Notes under the pieces: generated by a model
What the model was told of the DNA's origin: nothing
Seen by the model: the letters and a program-made list of their open reading frames with translations, nothing else
The model's database searches: none
NCBI GenBank assembly: GCA_903837825.1
Contig: CAILVZ010000042.1
Coordinates: 25,244-89,243, forward strand
From: Akkermansiaceae bacterium
Lineage (GTDB): Bacteria > Verrucomicrobiota > Verrucomicrobiia > Verrucomicrobiales > Akkermansiaceae
Reading direction: 5' to 3'
Length of the DNA: 64,000 bases
Shown here: positions 1,296-7,512 of the stretch, piece by piece
Numbering within the stretch: position 1 is the stretch's first letter
Layout of the letters: each line of letters opens with the position of its first letter
Position numbers and translations under genes: made by a program

Positions 1296-3764
1296 ATGCA
1301 AGCATGTGATCGTGACCTGACTCCCGAACTTTTGGCCCCAGCGGGCAACTGGGATTGTGCCCGGGCAGCGGTCGCGGCAGGAGCAGACGCGATTTACTTT
1401 GGATTGCCGAAGTTCAATGCACGATTGCGGGCGGACAATTTCATCGAGGCCGATCTCGAGGAGCTCATGGAATTCCTCCATCGGCACGGCGTCAAGGGGT
1501 TCATCGCCATGAACACGCTGATCTTCACTCAGGAGATGAAGGCCGCGGAAGATCAGCTTCGACGAATCGCAGCGGCCGGGGTGGACGCCTTGATTATCCA
1601 AGACCTGGGCCTCGCGAAGCTTGCCCGCGAAGTGGCGCCCAACGTCGAGCTTCACGCATCGACCCAGATGACCATCACCTCCCCCGATGGCCTCGCCTTC
1701 GTTGAGTCGCTCTTTCCATTAGAGCGCGCAGTGCTTGCCCGCGAACTTTCCGTCCGGGAAATTGAAAAATTTCAATCTTCCTCGGTCGGCACCCGCGCGC
1801 CGCTTGAGGTGTTCGTCCATGGTGCGCTCTGCGTCGCCTATTCGGGCCAATGCCTTACCAGTGAATCCCTTGGCCAGCGCAGTGCCAACCGTGGCGAATG
1901 CGCCCAAGCCTGCCGCATGCCTTACGAAATTGTCGTCGATGGAGAAACCCGCGACCTCGGGCCCGTGCGCTACTTGCTCAGCCCGCAAGATCTTGCCGCC
2001 GTCGATCTCATCCCCGACTTGGTCCGCGCCGGAGTGAAATCGTTCAAAATCGAAGGCCGCCTAAAATCCCCCGAGTACGTCTCCGCCGTCACCCGCGTCT
2101 ATCGCAAGGCACTCGATGCCGCCATGGCAGAAAAGGAGTCCACCATCACCGCCGCCGACCGCTACGCACTGGAAATGACATTCTCCCGCGGGCTCAGCAC
2201 CGGATGGTTTGCCGGGACGAATCACCCCTACCTCACTCATGGGAAATTCGGCAAAAAACGCGGCCCGCTGTTAGGTGAAATCATCGACTGTGGTCCCGGC
2301 TGGATTCGGCTAGGCAATCTGACAGGTGTGCCATTCACCGCTGGAGACGGCGTCGTGTTCGATGCGGGTGAAAACCGCGACCTTGAGCAAGGCGCACGGA
2401 TTTGGGTGATCGAGGGCGATCGCCTCATTTTCCACCTCACCTACAGCGGCATCAACTTTGACCGCATCAAGCCCGGCCACACGCTTTACAAGACATCCGA
2501 CCCCAAGCTCGACTCGGAACTCCGCCGGTTTTGGCAAAACACCCGACCACCCGAAAAAAAATCGGCGCTCCACCTGATCGTCTGCGGCAAGCCCGGCGAA
2601 CCGATCGAAATCCAGAGCGGCGACTGCAAGGTACGCAGTGAGATCCCCCTGCAAGAGGCGGCCAAGCACCCGCTAAACACCGAGACTCTCGTCGCTCAAC
2701 TCGGACGACTGGGTGATTCGTCCTTTGAACTCGGCTCGTTGGATAACCAACTTGAAGGCGATTGCCACATCGCCGTCTCCGCGCTGAATCAACTCCGCCG
2801 CGCCCTCGTCAAGCAGCTGGAAACCGCCGCCGCGATTCGAACGCCACTGCCAACGATCAGCACCACCTACCGCGACTTGCTTCCGGCAGTTCCAAGCACC
2901 CAGCCCCAAGCGCCCCAGCTCTCCGTCCTCTGTCGCACGCTCGAACAAGTTCGCGCGGCCATCGAGTGCGGGGTGGATTCGATCTACTGCGACTTCGAAG
3001 ACCCGCGCCGCTACAAAGAGGCCGTGGCATGTTTCCGATCGGAAAATGCAGCTACTGGATCTCAAATCCACCTCGCGACTCCACGAATCCTCAAGCCCGG
3101 CGAGACAGGATACCTAAAGCTCATCGAAAAGGCCGATCCCGACGGCCTACTCCTCCGCAACCTCGGCGCACTCCACTACTACAAGCATCGTAGCGACTTG
3201 AAAAAAATCGGCGATTTCTCTCTCAACATCGCCAATCCCATCACGGCAAAACTCTTGATGGAAAACGCTGGGCTCGACCATCTAACGGTTTCCTACGATC
3301 TCAACATCGGCCAAGTGCTCGAGCTTCTGAACAGCGCGCCGGTCGACTGGTTTGAGCTCACGCTGCACCAGCACATGCCGATGTTTCACATGGAGCACTG
3401 CGTTTTCTGCACTTTCCTTAGCAAAGGCACCACCTACAAAGACTGCGGCCGCCCTTGTGAAAGCCACGTGGTCCACCTCCGCGACCGGGTCGGCCAACTC
3501 CACCGCCTGCAAGCCGATGTCGGCTGCCGCAACACCCTCTTCAATGGCAAAGCTCAAACCGGCGCTCGCTACTTCCAGCACCTGCGCAACGCCGGATTGT
3601 CGCGGTTTCGCGTCGAGCTGTTAGACGAATCCGCCGACGCCACCAAAACCATCACCGCCTACCAAGACCTGCTCAGCGGCAAGTCGGACGCCTTCGACCT
3701 CCTCAACGAAGTTCAGGCACTTGAAAAACTCGGCGTCACCGAAGGCACACTCGCTGAGTTCTAG
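1296..3764 (+). CDS. U32 family protein with DUF3656-like middle and second C-terminal U32-like region
   Basis: Starts with the U32 signature PELLAPAGNWDCARAAV and the TIM-barrel motifs of this family (ADAIYFG, ELHASTQM, VFVHGALCVAYSG), followed by the cysteine cluster GECAQACRMPYE. Family members RlhA and TrhP use an Fe-S cluster and prephenate to hydroxylate rRNA C2501 or tRNA U34. A DUF3656-like stretch follows, then a second U32-like half ending in a further Cys set (CVFCTF, DCGRPCESH, DVGCRNTLFN). At about 822 residues it is longer than RlhA (about 650). Start at ATG 1296 puts the U32 motif near the N-terminus; the track start at 1197 adds 33 unlikely residues. It ends in TAG. rRNA hydroxylation is inference. 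Confidence 0.8.
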   Translation: MQACDRDLTPELLAPAGNWDCARAAVAAGADAIYFGLPKFNARLRADNFIEADLEELMEFLHRHGVKGFIAMNTLIFTQEMKAAEDQLRRIAAAGVDALIIQDLGLAKLAREVAPNVELHASTQMTITSPDGLAFVESLFPLERAVLARELSVREIEKFQSSSVGTRAPLEVFVHGALCVAYSGQCLTSESLGQRSANRGECAQACRMPYEIVVDGETRDLGPVRYLLSPQDLAAVDLIPDLVRAGVKSFKIEGRLKSPEYVSAVTRVYRKALDAAMAEKESTITAADRYALEMTFSRGLSTGWFAGTNHPYLTHGKFGKKRGPLLGEIIDCGPGWIRLGNLTGVPFTAGDGVVFDAGENRDLEQGARIWVIEGDRLIFHLTYSGINFDRIKPGHTLYKTSDPKLDSELRRFWQNTRPPEKKSALHLIVCGKPGEPIEIQSGDCKVRSEIPLQEAAKHPLNTETLVAQLGRLGDSSFELGSLDNQLEGDCHIAVSALNQLRRALVKQLETAAAIRTPLPTISTTYRDLLPAVPSTQPQAPQLSVLCRTLEQVRAAIECGVDSIYCDFEDPRRYKEAVACFRSENAATGSQIHLATPRILKPGETGYLKLIEKADPDGLLLRNLGALHYYKHRSDLKKIGDFSLNIANPITAKLLMENAGLDHLTVSYDLNIGQVLELLNSAPVDWFELTLHQHMPMFHMEHCVFCTFLSKGTTYKDCGRPCESHVVHLRDRVGQLHRLQADVGCRNTLFNGKAQTGARYFQHLRNAGLSRFRVELLDESADATKTITAYQDLLSGKSDAFDLLNEVQALEKLGVTEGTLAEF

Positions 3765-3954
3765 TTCTGAACATGCGGCGCATGGGAGCTTCGGCATCCG
3801 TCACGGATTCTCATCTTTTGATCATGGTTCGCCAAGAGAAACCAGATTCTAGGCTTGCCCCAGTGTGTACCGTGTGTGTTTTAAATGCGACGCTCAGTCG
3901 CCACATTATATCCAGACTCAAAGCTGAAGGCTGAGAGATTGTGAATGTTCGGGG

Positions 3955-3974
3955 AACACGCGCCCTCGCGTGTT
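3955..3974. repeat. Perfect 8-bp inverted repeat (hairpin)
   Basis: AACACGCG and CGCGTGTT are separated by CCCT. There is no T-run on either side, so it is not a typical intrinsic terminator. It may be a remnant of an extragenic repeat family. Confidence 0.55.
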
Positions 3975-4188
3975 GACTTCGGGACCCTCGCCGGAGCTAT
4001 CTCTTGATAACCTTCTTCGTCCTCCTCTTCTCCCCACTCGCCGCTGACCAACCTTGATGAATACAAATAGGCTTACATCTTGTCTGGGATTTAGAAATGC
4101 AAATTGCCCTTGGCGCATCTTTCGTGGCCCCATATGCTTCGTCCGTGACTGGAATTCCCAGAATCTTGCCTTTTTGGGCTGCCTTTGT

Positions 4189-4218
4189 CCTGAAACAACC
4201 GCGCGCGACTGTTCCAGG
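4189..4218. repeat. Imperfect hairpin upstream of the AT-rich module
   Basis: CCTGAAACA pairs with TGTTCCAGG with one mismatch around a GC-rich 12-base loop. It could be a decayed attC-like site marking the left edge of the island, but the outer R-box pattern is not clear. Confidence 0.3.
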
Positions 4219-4287
4219 TAAAATGCCGCGCGTGACTCAATAAAACTGTTCGAAAAAAGAAACACTAGAACCAAAAGTAAACTTCCT

Positions 4288-4737
4288 ATGATTATTGAAA
4301 TTGCATTAGGTATCGTGCTCGCAGCGCTAATACTGGCAGCGTTACCTTACATTCTTCAGCTTATTGCCGGAGCTGGCGCAATAGCTGCTATTGTTGTTGT
4401 TTTTATTCTCGTTGTTACTTTTGTCATCAAAGAACCAGCAGTCCTCTTTGCCATACCATTCGCCGCCGCAGTATTCGCACTACAAAAATACTACAACAAA
4501 AGCTCAAATGTTAGAATATTTTCATGGGGAGTATTTACGCTCTTTTGGCTACTATATACGACGGTGGTGTTATACGCGCTCCACGACGCACCGAATTTTG
4601 GCCTAACAAAAGCACCACTAGTAACGCTCTTTGGCATACTATTCTTCTCCACGCCAACGATTCTCTCATTACTGAAGTTTAGAAAAGTGCTAAAGAAAGA
4701 AAGGGAAGGCGCTTCCACTAGCTCATCATTCGAATGA
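4288..4737 (+). CDS. Small multi-pass membrane protein, unknown function
   Basis: I do not recognise this 149-residue protein. It has about four or five hydrophobic segments: residues 2-25, 28-48, 50-65, 78-98 and 105-125. The C-terminus is charged and serine-rich. Base composition is clearly more AT-rich than neighbouring genes (AAA, TTT, ATA codons), suggesting acquisition from elsewhere. Its end overlaps the next gene by ATGA, so the two are probably translated together. The pairing suggests a membrane partner for the downstream HEPN-like protein, but nothing in the sequence proves a role in defence or toxicity. Confidence 0.65.
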   Translation: MIIEIALGIVLAALILAALPYILQLIAGAGAIAAIVVVFILVVTFVIKEPAVLFAIPFAAAVFALQKYYNKSSNVRIFSWGVFTLFWLLYTTVVLYALHDAPNFGLTKAPLVTLFGILFFSTPTILSLLKFRKVLKKEREGASTSSSFE

Positions 4738-5198
4738 CGGAATATAGAAATAATCCCAAAATATGGGAGGCGACCTGTTATCAACTCCTCGATACACTCT
4801 TAGTCATGGAGAAGGGCATTCTATCCTCAAGCGATAGGGAAATTCACAGCGCACGCTTATCGGCAATGATGATTGCAGGCTTCGCATTCGAGAACGCTTT
4901 CAAGTCTTGGTATCTAAAAGAACAAAAAGGAATCCTATACGACGAAGAAGGAAAGCAAAAAGGTTTTAGCTCACATGCCTTCACCACTTGGGTTGCACAA
5001 CACCGAATAGAACTCCTAGGTTGGGAGTCTGAAGCCCTCGACAAATCCGAGTTCATCTGTGTCGCTTGGGGCAGATATCCAGCACACAATAGAAACGAAA
5101 AAGAAAGAAAACATGAAACTTGGGGGATGGGTGATGTCGACCAGTTAAGAAATCTAATTGGTCGCCTTCTTGATAGAACCGTAACCTATAAAAAATGA
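4734..5198 (+). CDS. HEPN-like helical protein
   Basis: 154 residues, mostly helical and charged. The pattern resembles HEPN-like proteins: a helix SAMMIAGFAFENAFKSWYLK, then a SSHAFTTWVAQHRIELL segment and a W-G-RYP motif (VAWGRYPAHNRNE). A strict RNase-type R-x4-6-H motif is not obvious, though R and H residues cluster around RYPAHNRNEKERKH. It overlaps the upstream membrane gene by 4 bases (ATGA), implying translational coupling. AT-rich like its partner. The stop is about 17 bases before an attC-like site, the usual position for a cassette gene. HEPN assignment is by eye and tentative. Confidence 0.55.
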   Translation: MTEYRNNPKIWEATCYQLLDTLLVMEKGILSSSDREIHSARLSAMMIAGFAFENAFKSWYLKEQKGILYDEEGKQKGFSSHAFTTWVAQHRIELLGWESEALDKSEFICVAWGRYPAHNRNEKERKHETWGMGDVDQLRNLIGRLLDRTVTYKK

Positions 5199-5214
5199 TT
5201 CGAACCAGTCGTGA

Positions 5215-5264
5215 TAGCCAACGCCCAGGCTCCGCCTAGCCGTCGGCTACACTCTACGTTCGCC
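5215..5264 (+). other. Integron attC-like recombination site A
   Basis: The outer boxes AGCCAACG and CGTTCGCC share a pairable AACG/CGTT core, as R'' and R' do in attC sites. The interior folds into a hairpin, TAGCC-GTC-GGCTA. The right box would be cut between G5258 and T5259. The site lies directly after the HEPN-like gene. The right box departs from the GTTRRRY consensus at two positions, so this is a degenerate or lineage-specific candidate. Confidence 0.4.
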
Positions 5265-5794
5265 AGAAAATATCTCAAACCATCTAAACCAACTCACATC
5301 CTATGCTAATTTGGAGCGGTTACGGAATACTAGTAGCACCAATCGTTTTCATAACGGTGGTAGCGTCGATCATTACTACCGGAATGTTCACTGATGACGA
5401 GTATCTCACCAATAATCCGTGGCCCGGAGGTGTTGCACTGCTGTTTTCTGGCGTTGCTTGTTGGCATCTTGGTGGTTGGTTGCGCAACCGCCACAATCGA
5501 GTCCTTTTTGATCGCTCAACAGGTGAAGACGTGGTCCTGCGACCCGGAACATCATTTTTCTTTATTCCCATGCGTGCATGGGGTCCGATACTCGGACTCG
5601 TGGGAGTCTTTCTGATCTGCGGCAACGTCATCGAACGCATGTCCTCCCCTACAGCGCCCCCACAACAGAAGACTGAATCTACCGAGCCTAGCCCACGTGA
5701 CATCAAGAAGACAGCCGGACGAGACGCTCCATCCAACGGCGGATAACGTCCTTCTTTGAACTGGCTTTCATCCCCGCCGTGGATGAGCTAGGCG
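5259..5794 (+). mobile_element. Candidate integron gene cassette
   Basis: The segment between the predicted cut points of the two attC-like sites is 536 bases. It holds one gene in the orientation expected of cassettes, with a short leader (about 44 bases) before the ATG. The gene's stop codon is embedded in the left box of the downstream site. No integron integrase is present in the window, so it would be an integrase-less attC cluster. Confidence 0.35.
5303..5746 (+). CDS. Cassette-borne membrane protein, unknown function
   Basis: 147 residues with three predicted membrane segments: residues 2-24 (LIWSGYGILVAPIVFITVVA), about 43-58 (GGVALLFSGVACWHLGGWL) and about 92-112 (GPILGLVGVFLICGNVI). 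A soluble Pro/Lys-rich tail of about 35 residues follows. No family recognised. The stop TAA lies inside the GGATAACG box of the following attC-like site, and another attC-like site lies just upstream. This is the classical geometry of an integron cassette gene. Overlapping ORFs on both strands are shadows. Confidence 0.6.
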   Translation: MLIWSGYGILVAPIVFITVVASIITTGMFTDDEYLTNNPWPGGVALLFSGVACWHLGGWLRNRHNRVLFDRSTGEDVVLRPGTSFFFIPMRAWGPILGLVGVFLICGNVIERMSSPTAPPQQKTESTEPSPRDIKKTAGRDAPSNGG

Positions 5795-5800
5795 TTGGGC
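5741..5800 (+). other. Integron attC-like recombination site B
   Basis: The better of the two candidates. The left box GGATAACG contains the stop codon of the upstream gene. The right box GCGTTGGGC matches GTTRRRY exactly. Between them CTGGCTTTCATCC pairs with GGATGAGCTAG around a 7-base loop, with two unpaired T residues resembling the extrahelical bases of folded attC. An unpaired spacer (TCCTTCTTTGAA) separates this stem from the outer AACG/CGTT pairing. Confidence 0.5.
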
Positions 5801-5812
5801 AAGAAAATTCAA

Positions 5813-6184
5813 ATGAAACCTCATCGCCGACAAGTCCCCGTCCTCCTGGGTGTGGCGGCTATCTCTGCATCACTATTCTTCGGGATCGTTCATGTTTACA
5901 GAACCAAGATCGTGACAATCGAGCTCGATGCTAGAATCGATATCGACGAGATCTTGCGGTAGATCGAATCACTTTCCAACGCGAAGGTCGTATCAGCATT
6001 TCGGAACATATCCTCCGTCTTCAGTTCGGACAAGATCGACCAGATCAATCAATTTCCCGGACAACAAGCAGACATCCTCGCAGTGATCAGGTTTAGCGAG
6101 TTGGAACAGGGGGCGATGAAGAAGCCCATCGCAGCACATTCGCTACCCCGCGAAACTCCTTGCGTAGGCCATTGGGAAAACTAG
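5813..6184 (+). pseudogene. Small membrane-anchored gene broken by one in-frame TAG
   Basis: Too short for the ORF track because of an internal stop. An ATG at 5813 begins MKPHRRQVPVLLGVAAISAS, a signal-anchor, and runs 49 codons to TAG at 5960. The same frame then stays open for 73 more codons to TAG at 6182, with protein-like content (IESLSNAKVVSAFRNISSVF). Reading the internal TAG as a mutated CAG gives DEILR-Q-IESL, a smooth helical join. The gene starts 13 bases after attC-like site B, so it is probably the next cassette. Options are a nonsense mutation, a sequencing error, or a real 49-residue peptide. Confidence 0.55.
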
Positions 6185-6288
6185 GGTTATTGAAAATCAT
6201 CTGATCCTTCATGCCGATGCCACCACTCAACAGCGTTATCCACCGGGCATTTGAGAACCAGGCGCCAAAAGCATGCACCGATCCCCTC

Positions 6289-7512
6289 ATGGGAGGACTC
6301 GGGAAATCACGGCTTGGCATCATGCTCCTCGTTTTCGCCTGCTGGAGTGGCAGGGCTCATGGCTTGGATGTCCGGGTGTGGAATGATTCCCAAGGCCGCG
6401 CCATCCATGCCACGATGATCCGTGCGGACACCGGAAATGTCACACTCAAGCTCAACGACGGTCGTGAGGTACCCTACCCACTGGCCAAGTTGTCGGAGGC
6501 GGACAGGAGCTACGTCGAGACCGCTCGTGGGCAGTCGACCGATCGTGCCAGTTCCACCCAAGCAAAATCCGACGATCCATCCGGCGTGGCGACTTTTGAA
6601 TCCGAGTGGCCGGGGTTGGTTCGATTCGCTGAAGATCCTGAAATTGCGACCCTCGAGGAGGATGCGGGCAAAAAACGTTTCGTGTATGAAAGCGCGAACT
6701 ATCGGTATCTCTGCGATGTGAGGCTTTCTCAGTCGGTGGTCAAAGGCTTTGCCGTGATGTTTGAGGCCACGCGTCTTTATTGTCGTAGCCTGCCGCTCTG
6801 CTTGAATGGTGGGGACAAAACGGATGGCAAGCTGCAGATCTTGCTCTTCGAAAAACAAGAAGACTACGCAAGTGCGGGCGGCCCTGACGGAACTGCTGGC
6901 GTTTTCATCTCGCAGAAGCATGCCGTGCTGGTTCCTCTCACGAGTCTTGGCGTCCGCCCCGTTGGCAATGGCTACATGCTTGATCGCGACAAGAGCAGTA
7001 AGACCCTCCCCCACGAACTCGCCCACCAACTCACTCCCATTCCCTATTTCAAATCTGGCGGCTGGTTCACCGAGGGTCTAGCAGAATACATCGGCAACAC
7101 CCCGTATCGCGCTGGAACCTATACCGTGCGCAATAACCAACGCGCCCTCGTCGAGTACGTCACCGGATACGGCTCAAAGCAAATGGGTGGCAGAGCGCTG
7201 GGCAAAAAGATTTCGTTGATGGATCTCAAGTCGTTTATGTTGCAGGAATACTCGAGCTTCACCTCAGATCCTCAACGCAGCTATGGATGTGGCTTGTTGC
7301 TCACCATCTACTTCTTGCACATGGATGGCGAGGGTGATGGGGCAAGGATCAAGAAGTTCCTCAAATCTCTAGCAGCCGGCAAGCCCACGGAAGAATCGTT
7401 TGCCCTTCTCTTAGACGGGCGGACTTATGAGCAACTGGAAAAAGAAATCACCAAGGCCTGGAGCAAAAATGGAGTGGATCTGAGCTTCGGCAAAGCCCCC
7501 AGCAAGTCATAA
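6289..7512 (+). CDS. Exported SHD1-domain metallopeptidase-like protein
   Basis: From ATG 6289 the N-terminus is a signal peptide (MGGLGKSRLGIMLLVFACW...AHG). The track start at 6211 adds 26 residues without signal character. Next comes an SHD1-like domain (VRVWNDSQGRAIHATMIRAD), common in Verrucomicrobia and Planctomycetes, then a linker. The C-terminal catalytic-like region has HELAHQLT, a zinc HExxH motif, followed 19 residues later by TEGLAEYIG, which supplies the third ligand in gluzincin-like peptidases. About 407 residues. Substrate unknown. The gene stands alone. Confidence 0.75.
   Translation: MGGLGKSRLGIMLLVFACWSGRAHGLDVRVWNDSQGRAIHATMIRADTGNVTLKLNDGREVPYPLAKLSEADRSYVETARGQSTDRASSTQAKSDDPSGVATFESEWPGLVRFAEDPEIATLEEDAGKKRFVYESANYRYLCDVRLSQSVVKGFAVMFEATRLYCRSLPLCLNGGDKTDGKLQILLFEKQEDYASAGGPDGTAGVFISQKHAVLVPLTSLGVRPVGNGYMLDRDKSSKTLPHELAHQLTPIPYFKSGGWFTEGLAEYIGNTPYRAGTYTVRNNQRALVEYVTGYGSKQMGGRALGKKISLMDLKSFMLQEYSSFTSDPQRSYGCGLLLTIYFLHMDGEGDGARIKKFLKSLAAGKPTEESFALLLDGRTYEQLEKEITKAWSKNGVDLSFGKAPSKS

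Follow-up and report, generated by a model that had tools for sequence, protein, structure and literature searches.

The window, that is the whole 64 kb stretch of DNA analyzed (G000:C42:25244-89243), belongs to a draft genome assembly of 399 contigs and 3.26 Mb (94% complete, 5% contamination). A gene for a U32-family peptidase, with its stop at 3764, precedes an integron array that lacks an integrase gene and consists of attI followed by three gene cassettes, of which two are complete and the third is broken. By its protein matches, the U32 gene assigns the window to Akkermansiaceae, Verrucomicrobiota. The GC content is 0.41-0.46 at about 4250-5250, vs. about 0.55-0.60 in the flanks. An Rfam scan detected a single tRNA and nothing else. 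The components of the locus are listed below; R1 and R2 denote the lineage-trained attC and attI models described further on.

4118-4175, plus strand: spacer that in intact platforms separates attI from the 3' end of intI (homology to contigs C196 and C8)
4176-4252, plus strand: attI (R2 44.4 bits, E 4.7e-12), crossover G4248^T4249
4249-5258, plus strand: gene cassette 1, two ORFs, from the attI crossover to the G^TT of attC1
4288-4737, plus strand: cassette 1 ORF a, 149 aa, hydrophobic
4734-5198, plus strand: cassette 1 ORF b, 154 aa, overlapping ORF a by 4 nt
5199-5264, plus strand: attC1, R'' TTCGAAC at 5199-5205, R' GTTCGCC at 5258-5264 (R1 29.1 bits, E 3.1e-5 in the window)
5259-5794, plus strand: gene cassette 2, from the G^TT of attC1 to that of attC2
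5303-5746, plus strand: cassette 2 ORF, 147 aa, with hydrophobic stretches, its last codons extending into attC2
5714-5800, plus strand: attC2, R'' GCCGGAC at 5714-5720, R' GTTGGGC at 5794-5800 (R1 37.8 bits, E 2.4e-7)
5795-6184, plus strand: remnant of cassette 3, ORF 5813-6184 with an in-frame TAG at 5960-5962, no terminal attC

Taken on its own, the locus is of a known kind, belonging with the intI-less attC clusters (CALINs) that carry small orphan genes. Like them it has at least two attC sites (5199-5264 and 5714-5800) and no integron integrase nearby, the contig being devoid of intI over 29 kb in the 5' and 58 kb in the 3' direction. Complete integrons feature intI beside attI; no intI homology was found between 3764 and 4175, and a tblastn search for intI remnants at 3600-6300 returned chance matches only. 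The attI with a G^TT crossover, which complete integrons also feature, is present. Unlike CALINs, the locus has a recognizable, lineage-specific attI with an exact cassette junction, and is a true, attI-anchored array. The surveys consulted sought attI of known classes only (classes 1-3 in PMC7923331).

attC sites were identified by a covariance model (R1) built on 27 attC from intI-bearing arrays of G000 and related genomes, namely those behind the C372 intI gene, the intI fragments of C393 and C8, and the intI genes of relatives; the window sequence was excluded from training. Compensatory changes occur in 11 of the 12 predicted stem pairs of the alignment. R1 has exactly two matches in the window, both well above background in the covariance-model check that the first-pass annotation had proposed, the next-best score being 9.7 bits; no third attC was detected by R1 in the window. 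Over the whole assembly R1 found 17 sites, which lie on nine contigs and include the two of the window. In 17 other genomes, the surroundings of the same flank gene (about 204 kb in all) yielded no site below E 0.1. Both attC feature pairing R''/R' and L''/L' boxes, an extrahelical base and a bottom-strand fold, according to the R1 alignment and to folding, the R'' box of attC2 being mutated (AAC to GAC). The R' box of attC2 fits GTTRRRY perfectly, as noticed earlier; that of attC1 deviates, but is close to the lineage consensus, GTTCGGC. The first-cassette attC behind a complete intI in G013 shares 81.5% identity with attC2 over 92 nt, and homologous sites in L023 and L048 are 81-82% identical. 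Since homology to intI-linked attC in relatives fixes the register, the left border of attC2 falls at 5714. The two folded attC proposed by the first-pass annotation are thus real, being far above chance as the only R1 matches in the window, but both had misdrawn borders. The start assigned to site 1, 5215, falls inside the stem, the true start being 5199. The AACG near 5746 taken as left box of site 2 lies in the central loop, the true left box being GCCGGAC at 5714-5720; in the corrected register the TAA of the upstream ORF (5744-5746), also assigned to the left box, is in the attC2 loop.

The bottom strand of attC1 folds into an attC hairpin with a z-score of -5.1 (0 of 200 shuffles as good). 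The z-score of attC2 is weak (-1.5), but known attC of the same genome can score weakly too (-1.4, -0.3), and in this lineage the fold z-score failed to tell true attC from background. The low z-score of site 2, and a terminator-like match overlapping it, might suggest that the hairpins arose by chance or are other repeats, such as terminators or REP-like sequences. This reading deserves practically no credit, as R1 scores, homology to intI-linked attC, the presence of attI and the self-match of the cassettes are all concordant; terminators and REP-like repeats are ruled out by the R1 matches and the self-match.

It is established that an integrated cassette starts, just past the crossover, with bases that pair with the R'' box of the attC belonging to that cassette. 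In three control arrays, 7/7 matches were found in 25 of 27 same-cassette pairs, vs. 30 of 320 different-cassette pairs. The 5' end of cassette 1, GTTCGAA, is the exact reverse complement (7/7) of its own R'', a non-consensus box. The 5' end of cassette 2, GTTCGCC, matches at 5 of 7 positions the reverse complement of its own R'', GTCCGGC.

The genes of the array are small and orphan, as described in the first-pass annotation, though there are four ORFs rather than three unknown genes, two residing in cassette 1 and one being interrupted by a stop. No cassette protein matched Pfam, NCBIfam or PADLOC above cut-off. The product of ORF a is probably a membrane protein. The product of ORF b is predicted, at low confidence, to be mostly helical (single-sequence structure prediction, mean pLDDT 55; too weak for a fold search), and has no homologues in 190 genomes of the order nor in 72,556 plasmids. 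The cassette 2 protein has homologues, 27-38% identical, in 8 other genomes of the order; no attC was found close to them in the loci searched. The cassette 3 ORF (5813-6184) reads as a pseudogene within the array.

The attI site was defined by aligning the sequences from the intI stop to the first cassette at eight loci having intI or an intI fragment. As a rule, the conserved region ends in CAATAANACTG^TT. The profile R2 was derived from these eight attI, the window being excluded, and matches the window at 4176-4252. The stretch singled out by the first-pass annotation begins within this site (4189), which had gone unnamed. The window attI is 85% identical over 40 nt to the attI behind complete intI in G024 and G002. 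Similarity extends upstream, as 4118-4252 is 77.8% identical over 135 bp to C196, an orphan platform of the same genome, and spacer and attI are 77.4% identical over 115 bp to the intI-fragment platform C8. In the window the spacer follows non-integron DNA. No promoter stood out at attI.

The insertion of cassettes off-target, at a chance chromosomal site, is listed among CALIN origins (PMC8618304), and would make the locus an ordinary CALIN lacking attI. This is most improbable here, because 77 bp of lineage-type attI precede cassette 1 and the junction is exact. The exact junction at attI marks the locus, therefore, as an intI-less integron platform, not as a set of cassettes inserted at a random site; off-target insertion without attI is ruled out by the R2 match.

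In C196 (L071 near 4600-4655) and C8 (L070 near 1225-1270) attI contains a near-perfect inverted repeat, with arms of about 20-24 bp (TTTGTCCTGGAACAACCGCG/CGCGGTTGTTCCAGGACAAA), upstream of the core. The repeat may possibly be a regulatory or accessory integrase site. It is degraded in the window attI, imperfect compared with C196.

The cluster lacks an integrase, as first annotated; the genome does not. A whole-genome search detected one complete intI gene, in C372 (TIGR02249, 386.7 bits, above cut-off), and two intI fragments; in C393 nothing beyond the final ~100 IntI residues is left, and C8 likewise retains no more than a fragment. These fragments, found before attI, show stages of integrase loss. 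The order intI, attI, cassettes, in a single direction, is seen in C372. A second platform that has attI and cassettes while lacking intI is found in C196, directly behind an ACT-domain-like gene.

The locus is most probably a decayed platform behind the U32 gene, whose cassettes would have been placed by an integrase and whose intI would have been deleted up to the spacer. Past linkage to intI is suggested because the window attI and spacer are homologous to those of platforms keeping intI or fragments of it. An integron integrase would have inserted the cassettes by recombining folded bottom-strand attC with double-stranded attI at G^TT. The integrase gene would then have been deleted up to the spacer, which starts about 60 nt before attI; a deletion from the upstream side would leave just what the window shows. 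Since no intI fragment remains at the window locus, we infer the deletion from the other platforms. The array could be mobile today only via an integrase encoded elsewhere and acting in trans, and is presumably close to inactive. Decay is proposed because the attC2 R'' is mutated, the cassette 3 ORF is stopped, and the attI inverted repeat is imperfect compared with C196.

The search for relatives weighs against the deletion. No relative with intI at this position, and none with the same genes in the same place, was found in the loci searched via flank and cassette genes. No syntenic empty site was found either, via the U32 gene (80 loci) or a SHD1-domain gene, neighbourhoods not being conserved. 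Moreover, the complete intI of the genome adjoins an attI of a different type, 47% identical to that of the window.

R2 detected seven attI in the genome, in C372, C67, C393, C33, C196, C8 and C42 (the window). Behind each of the seven there is same-strand attC (weak in C33); a rough estimate of this happening by chance is of the order of 1e-18. Two types can be distinguished, one formed by window, C196, C8 and C393 (66-90% mutual identity), the other by C372, C67 and C33 (91-100%); identity between types is 42-49%. C372 (L009 2784) and C67 (L072 6107) share an identical 118 bp sequence that reaches the attI crossover (the end of contig C67); past it they are wholly different. Either this is a second recent platform, or the two are population variants with different first cassettes, a trace of recent insertion.

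In 59 genomes searched with R2 at 34 bits or more, 67 attI were found. Within 600 bp of fifteen of them lies intI or part of it; the remaining 52 lack such a neighbour and are spread over 18 genomes, contig ends explaining some of them. The surroundings of 30 attI lacking a complete intI were read, and 24 have a same-strand attC within 1.3 kb, a few of these attC being weak. The one-contig genome G004 has two intI-less attI, both followed by attC, and contig breaks are no explanation for these, because the genome is one contig. Genomes outside the genus have hardly any attI-like sites (2 of 22).

Genome G030 has eight or more attI copies; in the 110 nt leading up to the crossover they are 88-100% identical (most 96-100%), and just past it only 12-35%, similarity stopping exactly at the crossover. 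In six copies the final intI codons are fused in the same way to ~27 bp of foreign DNA, in at least three different flanks, and the intI-deleted segment is common from about -232 to the crossover. It begins at AATACAACTTCCCAGACAAAAAGAAG, and is repeated in different flanks in L186, L187, L189, L191 and L192; in L186 and L187 its left end joins an apparent truncated attC. The pattern fits the multiplication of an intI-deleted attI segment, different cassettes having later been inserted in trans at each copy, though copies sharing a flank may be strain variants.

These data bear on whether the locus may be a live satellite, an intI-less attI that is kept and supplied with cassettes in trans by an integrase elsewhere in the genome. 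Such a role is conceivable, given the seven attI followed by attC in a genome with one complete intI, the 52 of 67 attI lacking intI within 600 bp, the two in G004 with attC, and the G030 copies turning to unrelated sequence exactly at the crossover. It is nonetheless rather unlikely for this locus, as the window attI differs in type from that beside the only complete intI, and shows decay. In addition, draft assemblies inflate the counts of intI-less platforms (noted in PMC9024848), and those copies in G030 that have a flank in common may represent strain variants.

Just as the intI-deleted attI segment of G030 seems to have spread, the platform in the window may have reached its site devoid of intI. 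The segment would then have moved, as a mobile unit with or without cassettes, already lacking the integrase gene. G030 provides the precedent, with several copies having the same intI deletion junction in different flanks. For the window this origin is improbable, since the left ends of the G000 copies are not shared and copies of the same type as the window attI are 66-90% identical, so that G000 shows no recent burst of this type, and since no terminal repeats or transposase were recognized at the locus.

In a broader reading, the genus would have a distributed integron, in which many intI-less attI scattered over the chromosome are maintained and filled in trans by one or a few integrases, some having multiplied as intI-deleted segments, and of which the window locus would be a satellite. 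This is put forward tentatively, as a possibility short of an even chance.

CALINs, their proposed origins and their mobilization in trans are already known (PMC8618304, PMC9668308, PMC12444791), and Verrucomicrobiota are among the phyla with integrons (PMC8618304). No description of genomes with many orphan attI was found in the literature searched, from which subscription journals and preprints were left out, and the many-platform arrangement is a variant not found described there. The decayed platform proposed for the window has parallels elsewhere. In the Treponema chromosomal integron (PMC3607928) intI is likewise transcribed towards attI, in the cassette direction, and the loss of intI with retention of attC is documented in T. 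phagedenis (PMC3607928). Here, in contrast, the host belongs to Verrucomicrobiota, and genomes have several attI platforms, vs. the one integron of Treponema. Similarly, in the inactivated integrons of Xanthomonas (PMC12444791) cassette arrays are kept after intI is lost or inactivated; there, however, one ancestral platform site is involved, whereas the seven attI of G000 reside at unrelated places.

Three routes have been proposed for the origin of CALINs, off-target insertion, intI loss and rearrangement (PMC8618304), and the orphan attI of this lineage bear on the question. The attI of the lineage are conserved enough for profiling, and intI-less platforms can therefore be told apart from off-target insertions; many "CALINs" of this lineage prove to be attI-anchored. 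In genomes with 7-11 attI matches and few complete integrases, it can be tested directly whether integrases act in trans on orphan attI.

The complete integron in C372 shares with the window the attC family and the layout, intI, attI and cassettes lying in one direction. It differs in its attI, which is of the other type, and in having a complete intI. The encoded IntI (L009 2944-4452, minus strand) is extended at the N-terminus by roughly 180 aa, which precede the usual start of integrases and match no Pfam family; intI ORFs of 460-545 codons were also observed in several relatives. In two platforms of the genome, intI or its remnant lies directly behind what seems, by eye, to be a tRNA-Ser gene (L009 4670-4780, L011 11538-11625).
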